Shown in pieces: positions 1,316-9,538 of a stretch of DNA of 64,000 bases. Position numbers and translations under genes: made by a program. The notes below the pieces were generated by a model that saw only the letters and a program-made list of their open reading frames with translations, was not told the DNA's origin and ran no database searches. This DNA comes from a virus, in the IMG/VR virus record IMGVR_UViG_3300027759_004177, positions 186,001 through 250,000 of that record; one strand, given 5' to 3'. How positions within the stretch are numbered: the first letter of the stretch is position 1; each line of letters starts with the position of its first letter.

Positions 1316-1405
1316 TGGCGGAGAGTGTGAGATTCGAACTCACGATAGTGTTGCCACTATGCCGGTTTAGTAGACCGGTGCCTTCAGCCGCTCGGCCAAC
1401 TCTCC
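1316..1405 (-). tRNA. tRNA-Ser (anticodon ACU)
   Basis: Class II cloverleaf: 7-bp acceptor (GGAGAGT/ACTCTCC), discriminator G, encoded CCA, long variable arm stem (ATAGTG/CACTAT) and a normal T arm. The anticodon loop is CTACTAA, giving anticodon ACU for Ser AGU. A34 instead of the usual G34 is unusual for bacteria and phages. It lies directly upstream of a radical SAM gene on the same strand. Confidence 0.9.
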
Positions 1406-1432: not shown

Positions 1433-1708
1433 ATGAAAAAATTAATATTTCTATTGGCAACATTCTTTTGTGTTTCTGCCATGGCTTTTACTACTCAAAA
1501 ACCTGTTGACTGTTTTGGAACACCTGAAGTTACCAAAATGCTACGAGAAGAATTCAACGAAGTCATCATATTTGACAGTATCAACAACCTGACCGGCAAA
1601 AGCAGAATTTCTTTGTTTGTAAATTCTAAAACTGGAACATGGACCTTGGTTGAATACGACAACGACAATGCCTGCATTTTAGGTGCTGGTCAAAGTCGTT
1701 CCACCTGA
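1433..1708 (+). CDS. Small exported protein with signal peptide
   Basis: 91 aa. The first 18 residues form a classic Sec signal peptide (Lys-Lys, hydrophobic core, AMA before the predicted cleavage site). The mature part of about 73 aa has two Cys (near residues 27 and 81) that could form a disulfide in the periplasm. No family recognised. The start is supported by AAAGG and a late-type promoter. The 3' end overlaps the convergent dCMP deaminase by 19 bp. The signal peptide closely resembles those of the two TctC-type receptors nearby, so it belongs to a set of phage proteins sent to the host envelope. Possible roles are superinfection exclusion or accessory receptor function (speculative). 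Confidence 0.7.
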   Translation: MKKLIFLLATFFCVSAMAFTTQKPVDCFGTPEVTKMLREEFNEVIIFDSINNLTGKSRISLFVNSKTGTWTLVEYDNDNACILGAGQSRST

Positions 1709-2130
1709 CTGACTTCCACGCCCGACTTAGTTAAAAAATCAACGCCGGTGGTATCTCTGTAGGCTGTGCCAAACCACACCCGAGCTATACCACTTTGATA
1801 TATCAGTTTGGCACAGTCTAAGCAAGGGCTGTGAGTAACAAATAGATCAGCACCATGCCCAGACTCATTGCTACGTGCCAGTTTTGCAATAGCATTTGTT
1901 TCAGCATGGAGAACTTCTGGTTTGGTTTTAAGTTCATGATGTCCATCCTCTCTAAGTTCTATTATTTCTTCGCAGTCATTGTCCCAACCGGCGGGCATGC
2001 CATTATAACCAATACTGATGATCCTATCATCCTTGACCACAATAGCACCCACATGCAATCTACGAGCGTGACTGAGTTCAGCAAATGTTCTTGCTGTTTG
2101 CATGTAGGCTTGTACTAACTTGTCTTTCAT
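1690..2130 (-). CDS. cd: dCMP deaminase (deoxycytidylate deaminase)
   Basis: 146 aa. Zinc-dependent deaminase converting dCMP to dUMP, feeding phage dTTP synthesis in the cytoplasm. The zinc site is visible as HAE (H75, catalytic E77) and PCxxC (C103, C106). Length is close to the family norm. The N-terminal region HARRLHVGAIVV...GYNGMPAG is typical of ComEB/dCMP deaminases. ATG overlaps the TGA of the upstream omega-like gene in an ATGA junction, so the two are translationally coupled. T4 encodes the same enzyme (cd). Confidence 0.93.
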   Translation of the reverse strand: MKDKLVQAYMQTARTFAELSHARRLHVGAIVVKDDRIISIGYNGMPAGWDNDCEEIIELREDGHHELKTKPEVLHAETNAIAKLARSNESGHGADLFVTHSPCLDCAKLIYQSGIARVWFGTAYRDTTGVDFLTKSGVEVSQVERL

Positions 2131-2345
2131 TTTACCTTGGCCAGATAATCGACTACATTTAAGTGGCCTTTTTGTGCTTCCAACAATGCGTCCACTGCTG
2201 TGACATGAGCTCCGGATTCTCTAGCACGGATTTTAAGTTCACGCACCCGCTGGGCGGCTGCAACAACTAGGTCAAACCGGCCAACACCTGTTTTGTCAAT
2301 ACATTTTTCAACATCTACTTCTGATGCACGAGTTTCTTTTCTCAT
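2127..2345 (-). CDS. RNA polymerase omega subunit-like protein
   Basis: 72 aa. The segment RFDLVVAAAQRVRELK (about residues 23-38), followed by TAVDALLEAQKG, matches the helical core of bacterial RpoZ, where omega holds the beta-prime tail during RNA polymerase assembly. The bacterial protein is about 90 aa, so this is a compact version lacking the C-terminal tail. A phage copy could replace host omega to favour binding of phage transcription factors or stabilise the enzyme (inference). It is coupled to dCMP deaminase (ATGA) and lies 8 bp after a glycosyltransferase-like gene. Assignment rests on a short motif. Confidence 0.6.
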   Translation of the reverse strand: MRKETRASEVDVEKCIDKTGVGRFDLVVAAAQRVRELKIRARESGAHVTAVDALLEAQKGHLNVVDYLAKVK

Positions 2346-2353
2346 TTTTTGCC

Positions 2354-3433
2354 TTAGTTTAAAAAATAATCATTTAGAATGGTTGTGTCTACTTTAAAGT
2401 TCTCTTTTATTATAACACGTTTATCTATATCTTGCAAGATCTTTATCAGATTACCGTAAGCTGAGTTAGCCACTTTTTGGAAGTGTAGTCTATTATGGTA
2501 GCTTGGTGCAGGATTGCCTGCTGTGAGCAAACTCTTAACTAGATGGTCTGCACGTTCTTGTGGATATGGTACACTATCGTAGGTTTCATCTATAGTATCG
2601 CCGAAGGTTTCAAATCCTAACTCTCGGATCTTGGCCAGGCTATGTTGTCCACCGTAGACCACAAACGGGTGACCTAGCATTAGACTCTTGTAGGTCTTTT
2701 CGGTTGGGAACCATTCGTTCTGTGTGGTTTCACTGGCTATGCTTATCGTGGTATTGTAGTAGTGACTAGGATAGTAGGCATAGAAACGAAAGTCCGGATG
2801 TACAAATGGATCAGGCCAATCTTGATCTGGTCCAAAGCCGTCTGCACTTTTACCTGACCTATGACTCCATATACTGGCATCAAGTAGCCCGGCTGTTTTA
2901 AATAATTCAAAGAATCGTTCTCTATTGGTGCGCCATTCTCCATTTAAGAACAGGAACCGGTGCGTCTTTACTGCTGTGTCAATTTGATTGCATGTGTACT
3001 CTAATCTGGCACGATTAAACTCATTGTTGATAATCCACGCAAAGAACTCGGGCATGTTATAGTTCTTTGCATAACCGTCAATATCCCAATCGCCACACTT
3101 GATTAAGTATCCATCAATATTTTTTGCTTGCAGTTGCTCTGCGGTTGGGCAAAAACTTGCCGATAAGGTTGCATAGCTTTCACTTGGATAATAAAATACA
3201 ATCTTGTTGTTGTGTCCTGCGGCACGATCAATTATGGCTTGAGCAATATCGTGTCCGGGATCACCACAGGCTGTCTCCATAACAAAGCAGTCTGTGACAA
3301 TGGTAGCACCGTCAGGTATTGCACTCACATCAGACTCCACGTAATCCACACCGTGCAGAGACAGAGTAGCACGTAATAAATCCGCTTGTTTTTCGGCTGG
3401 ACGTTTGAGTGGATGTAATATTAGATATAACAT
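2354..3433 (-). CDS. Glycosyltransferase-like protein, EKT family (paralogue 1)
   Basis: 359 aa. The C-terminal third carries PTEKTYKSLMLGHPFVVYG...LGFETF...DETYD. The same pattern (EKT-x-G-x-PF-x-G...GF-x-TF) occurs in two other proteins of this window (27914-28888 and 29642-30670). The E-K-T/x-G-x-P layout resembles the nucleotide-sugar binding half of GT-B glycosyltransferases such as GT10 fucosyltransferases, so sugar transfer to a glycan or modified base is a reasonable guess, not proven. The N-terminal half is less conserved. No signal peptide, so cytoplasmic. It heads a minus-strand unit with the omega-like and dCMP deaminase genes. Confidence 0.6.
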   Translation of the reverse strand: MLYLILHPLKRPAEKQADLLRATLSLHGVDYVESDVSAIPDGATIVTDCFVMETACGDPGHDIAQAIIDRAAGHNNKIVFYYPSESYATLSASFCPTAEQLQAKNIDGYLIKCGDWDIDGYAKNYNMPEFFAWIINNEFNRARLEYTCNQIDTAVKTHRFLFLNGEWRTNRERFFELFKTAGLLDASIWSHRSGKSADGFGPDQDWPDPFVHPDFRFYAYYPSHYYNTTISIASETTQNEWFPTEKTYKSLMLGHPFVVYGGQHSLAKIRELGFETFGDTIDETYDSVPYPQERADHLVKSLLTAGNPAPSYHNRLHFQKVANSAYGNLIKILQDIDKRVIIKENFKVDTTILNDYFLN

Positions 3434-9462: not shown

Positions 9463-9538
9463 TGGTGCCCTGGGTAGGATTCGAACCCACAATGTCCGCT
9501 CGGTAAAGCGGTGACTATACCATTTTGTCTACCAGGGT
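9463..9538 (-). tRNA. tRNA with 6-nt anticodon loop, isotype uncertain (perhaps Val UAC)
   Basis: D arm (GAC/GTC), T arm (GTGGG...TTCGAAT...CCTAC), acceptor and CCA are recognisable. Position 1-72 is an A-C mismatch. The anticodon arm is 16 rather than 17 nt: stem CCGCT/AGCGG leaves a loop of only TTACCG. The anticodon therefore cannot be read safely. Either the tRNA is non-functional or unusual, or a base is missing in the assembly. Confidence 0.6.

Follow-up and report, generated by a model that had tools for sequence, protein, structure and literature searches.

An RNA polymerase omega homologue encoded by uncultured jumbo phages, with loss of the MAR arginine in the lineage of a T4-type phage

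The T4 proteins gp55, gp33, RpbA and AsiA are small phage proteins that work on the core RNA polymerase (RNAP) of the host, and to our knowledge none of them is homologous to a host core subunit. Jumbo phages of the phiKZ/AR9 type do encode homologues of cellular RNAP subunits; these are homologues of beta and beta-prime, which make up an independent enzyme. A virus-like element that acts through omega is RcGTA, which supplies a factor, GafA, that binds the omega subunit of its host (PMC9638019). The MAR motif of bacterial omega binds ppGpp (PMC6416229, PMC9638019); ppGpp site 1 lies at the interface of beta-prime and omega, and RNAP without omega is insensitive to ppGpp in vitro (PMC5811629). 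E. coli RNAP also has a second ppGpp site, with DksA, and a considerable part of the stringent response survives deletion of rpoZ (PMC5811629, PMC7700224).

The phage described here differs from RcGTA in supplying omega itself. Its gene lies in a stretch of 64,000 nucleotides (the window), which covers positions 186001-250000 of a 356,865-bp IMG/VR record, IMGVR_UViG_3300027759_004177. The sequence-only reading had placed the gene in a T4-type phage, and this context is borne out by the window's own record, which encodes a T4-type gp23 capsid protein (record positions 264176-265126, E 5e-99) and, as in T4, a gp55 late sigma factor (279134-279451, E 6e-23); gp23 was found in 11 of 25 related records and gp55 in 15 of 17. 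Profiles for beta-prime (PF00623) and beta (PF00562) matched none of 25 and none of 17 related records, respectively, the window's record being in both sets and the controls positive in 14 of 14 cases, although some of the records may lack parts of their genomes, and such profiles could miss phage subunits that have diverged strongly. Whereas phages of the phiKZ/AR9 type bring an enzyme of their own, this one encodes omega alone as far as these searches reach. It appears to run on the host core RNAP, and since neither beta nor beta-prime was detected in its record, the partner of its omega should be the host core enzyme.

The omega gene occupies positions 2127..2345 of the window on the minus strand, including the stop codon, and encodes 72 amino acids from an ATG start; the open reading frame is exactly where the sequence-only reading had put it, and both of the motifs then quoted, RFDLVVAAAQRVRELK and TAVDALLEAQKG, are present in the translation. 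Directly upstream, after a gap of 8 nt and in the same direction, is a gene for a 359-aa protein of unknown family (2354..3433, minus strand), whose stop codon overlaps a Shine-Dalgarno-like TAAGGC (2351..2356, minus strand, read from the sequence) 5 nt before the omega ATG. Directly downstream is a dCMP deaminase gene (phrog_174; 1690..2130, minus strand), whose start overlaps the omega stop by 4 nt (ATGA). The Shine-Dalgarno-like element and the ATGA overlap make it look like a member of an operon; the same order of the three genes is seen at two further loci (L002 and L003). The T4 late promoter motif TATAAATA occurs twice in the window against 3.3 expected occurrences, and none lies near the omega gene. 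Between members of the window-type subfamily dN/dS is 0.13-0.18, and the gene is under purifying selection; this and its recurrence in about 12 viral records mark it as more than a chance reading frame. Elsewhere in this part of the window are a tRNA-Ser gene (1316..1405, minus strand), a radical SAM/SPASM protein (13-1308), relatives of which occur in 44 viral contigs, a TctC-type periplasmic solute-binding protein (PF03401; 4105-5058), to which a protein encoded immediately downstream of omega at another phage locus (L059) bears a distant similarity, and a tRNA for which ARAGORN gives an incomplete two-base anticodon (tRNA-???; 9463-9538).

Taken as a single sequence, the window protein scores just under the curated cut-offs of both omega profiles, with 20.4 bits against PF01192 (RNA_pol_Rpb6; E 5e-4, cut-off 26) and 21.5 bits against TIGR00690 (rpoZ; E 1.8e-4, cut-off 23.6). 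No PHROGs family was found for it. A sequence search of the PDB places omega chains on top (E 0.006-0.015), with chance matches to DARPins mixed in below. With a profile made exclusively from omegas of bacteria the window protein scores 27.8 bits, while the maximum over 5000 shuffles of the same protein is 14.4, and with this profile the phage proteins span 84 down to 25 bits. In the HMM comparison with RpoZ that the sequence-only reading had proposed, the single-sequence match stays below its cut-off, and the bacteria-only profile separates the protein clearly from its shuffles.

Consideration of the relatives of the window protein links it to bacterial omega by a graded chain. Phage G021 is a relative that has the neighbouring radical-SAM gene in common with the window, and its omega reaches 45.3 bits against PF01192, above the Pfam cut-off. 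The phage omega profile matches PDB omegas at 1.5e-18 and finds matches in 387 of 398 Pseudomonadota genomes, those read out being MAR proteins of the rpoZ type. The chain starts at the window type, ETRASEVDVEKC, passes by way of ESRSSEIDTERC, SRSSEIDTDKCVELAGGNRYDLVL and PQNIDTDKCVEAVGNRFDLVL and ends with MARITSEDAVEQVGNRFDLVL; named by types, it leads from the window type to the ESRSSEIDTERC and PQNIDTDKC types and on to the MARITSE types. In alignment columns comparing 65 phage with 62 bacterial sequences, the core residues R16, L19, R26, E52 and G56, together with A49-L50, are kept in nearly all.

An AlphaFold2 model of the window protein, for which the input alignment consisted of its own phage relatives, has a pLDDT of 91.6. 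Foldseek alone gives omega as the best match to this model at an E of only 0.2. A second look with VIA-align returned RNAP omega chains in all of the best 23 rows, with Z of 4.6-6.9 against 3.1 for the next, unrelated row; for a small helical protein, a Z below 8 carries little weight by itself. The window protein is thus predicted to have the omega fold. The model with a pLDDT of about 92 and its 23 top omega matches, the graded phage chain and the score with the bacteria-only profile settle its identity as an omega, in agreement with the sequence-only reading, and homology, fold and core residues together make it a member of the omega/Rpb6 family (PF01192, TIGR00690). It resembles bacterial RpoZ over the whole omega core, and the structural alignment gives it an identity of about 30% to E. 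coli omega. It differs from bacterial RpoZ in being phage-encoded, in lacking the MAR arginine and in scoring below the curated cut-offs, and also has a six-residue N-terminal extension, a shortened loop and no long C-terminal tail.

The close relatives of the window omega come from five viral contigs, and the window-type profile finds 57 loci, which include a window-type subfamily (about 12 records) as well as intermediates with identities of 33-45%. With the G021 omega as query, 117 viral stretches were found to encode relatives, of which 80 were kept, on contigs of up to 364 kb. In all, well over 100 IMG/VR contigs encode a phage omega. A 374-kb record with both gp23 and gp55 (G008) gave no match to the combined profile when eleven records were rechecked, so that the presence of omega is patchy. 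Among 50,697 annotated phage records, the window omega has no tblastn match, and the matches of the G021 omega were rejected as apparent host DNA; these comprise short and 'Campylobacter phage' records with an rpoZ of the enterobacterial type, contigs from Salmonella, and the Acinetobacter 'phage MD-2021a'. The enterobacterial-looking rpoZ genes in MG065691, MG065686, OR845831 and OR851528, which are short or 'Campylobacter phage' records, are probably host contamination. A phage omega had been called unusual, which holds for the annotated collection, where there is no genuine match, but does not hold for uncultured jumbo phages, in which the family is widespread. Our literature search, in which coverage of subscription papers and bioRxiv was thin, found no prior report of a phage-encoded omega; as far as we found, the supply of omega alone by a phage to the host enzyme is undescribed in the literature searched.

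In a tree of 96 distinct phage omegas and 62 omegas of Pseudomonadota, the only bacteria sampled, a single branch separates the two sets (SH-aLRT 98), and a smaller, more careful tree gives the same split with support of 100/96, with the proviso that the alignment is short and that the phage set was collected by similarity to phage queries. All of the phage omegas lie outside the sampled Pseudomonadota, and the topology suggests that they have a single origin. A search for a donor among bacterial contigs returned only omegas from alphaproteobacterial MAGs, at 34-39% identity, the reach of this search being limited by the peptide patterns on which it relied.

Arg3 of the MAR motif is present in all 62 of the bacterial omegas. 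In the 96 phage omegas the same position holds Arg in 38, Gly in 31, Glu in 13 and other residues in the rest, which leaves 58 without the arginine. The window protein has Glu9 here (codon at 2319..2321, minus strand) in both sequence and structural alignments; against 6pss_K, the first structurally aligned pair is model residue 9 and residue 3 of E. coli omega. On a tree built without these columns the Arg3 state changes at least nine times, and each phage clade has one typical substitute, Gly in one large clade and Glu in that of the window. As MAR binds ppGpp and RNAP without omega is insensitive to it, an RNAP carrying a MAR-less phage omega may be blind at site 1. Such blindness would not be family-wide, since 38 of the 96 phage omegas keep Arg3. 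The sequence-only reading had suggested a change in promoter choice; with the MAR arginine lost in the window lineage, the alignments point to altered ppGpp sensing, instead of or beside such a change.

At seven distinct loci the phage omega is followed, 1.6-3.7 kb downstream, by a gene for an HD_4 protein (L090:8308-8856, L095:7829-8386, L103:4300-4911, L114:9325-9879, L130:5782-6399, L244:5070-5618 and L087:9840-10376). In the PDB these proteins match the hydrolase domains of RelA/SpoT as well as MESH1 and small alarmone hydrolases (best E 1.5e-15), and we take them to be putative small alarmone hydrolases of the SpoT/MESH1 type. Six of the seven loci have a MAR-less omega, an association of Arg3 loss with a hydrolase neighbour that is not significant (6/52 against 1/37, Fisher p 0.23), and profile PF13328 detects no hydrolase gene in the record of the window itself. 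Because rpoZ and spoT share one operon in E. coli (PMC7700224), the pairing might, by analogy, be a relic. In many relatives the omega gene lies in or beside a tRNA/tmRNA array, for instance between tRNA-Gly and tRNA-Ala (L066) or between tRNA-Asn and tRNA-Ala (L004), and no conserved gene adjoins omega across the lineages compared. Many omega loci, L077:1-12198 among them, have very dense tRNA arrays, in which 12 kb can hold as many as 35 tRNA genes. Phage tmRNA genes near omega, all of them encoding a full tag peptide (e.g. ANDELYALAA), are found at L082:4614-4941, L092:4483-4896, L104:9707-10040, L108:2741-3169 and L110:7539-7960.

We propose that the phage protein is most probably a replacement omega for host RNAP, which would occupy the omega site on host beta-prime, replacing or supplementing the host subunit in the core enzyme used by the phage. 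The sub-threshold single-sequence scores could be read as a chance resemblance, or as the mark of a helical protein unrelated to omega, but the phage intermediates, the profile scores against shuffles and the fold match contradict this, and we consider it scarcely credible. Dominant lethal omega mutants that poison RNAP in E. coli (PMC7700224) provide a precedent for a subunit that binds host core RNAP to inhibit host transcription; as the searches detected neither beta nor beta-prime of phage origin, phage transcription would be hit too, which makes such a poison very improbable. If the protein does act as a replacement omega, the main competing consequences are evasion of ppGpp, supply or chaperoning of the host enzyme, and docking of an activator. 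In the first case, the change from MAR arginine to glutamate in the window lineage would give a phage-modified polymerase with a crippled ppGpp site 1, so that phage transcription could continue while the infected cell makes ppGpp. This is a possibility that we put forward tentatively; the loss of site 1 may matter little, given site 2 with DksA and the considerable stringent response left in rpoZ deletion strains.

Supply of omega would have the phage copy do the job of the host subunit, in beta-prime folding and RNAP stability, once the genes of the host are silenced or broken down, and the loss of Arg3 would then reflect relaxed constraint. Omega is a chaperone of beta-prime (PMC5811629), the phage genes sit within tRNA and tmRNA arrays among other copied small host informational genes, and the MAR motif drifts while the core residues are conserved and is kept in many phage copies. 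However, a residue that is invariant in the sampled bacteria has one typical substitute per phage clade in proteins that are elsewhere strongly conserved, and this looks less like plain drift; supply may be the right explanation, though we would not presume it. The phage omega could instead have been swapped in as a platform that recruits a phage activator through phage-specific surfaces. The GafA activator of the gene transfer agent acts through host omega, to which it binds (PMC9638019), and Glu29 (65 of 65 phage omegas) and Tyr62 (63 of 65) are conserved in the phage proteins and rare in bacteria; no partner protein emerged, however, and omega has no constant neighbour across lineages, and we regard docking as unlikely.

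Taken together, our data show that the window protein is homologous to bacterial omega and allow a broader reading, which we advance with some hesitation: that a widespread T4-type jumbo lineage swaps the omega of host RNAP for a MAR-less one of its own, which leaves the enzyme blind at site 1, and that some members add a SpoT/MESH1-like hydrolase nearby. If this were true, the ppGpp signal and its receptor would both be disarmed in phages with the nearby hydrolase. The phage homologues of RNAP core subunits reported earlier belong to independent beta/beta-prime enzymes, from which the supply of omega alone differs. As deletion of rpoZ has little phenotype, work in E. coli has left open the role of omega and site 1; phage omegas that keep MAR and those that lack it offer a natural comparison for the roles of both in infection.
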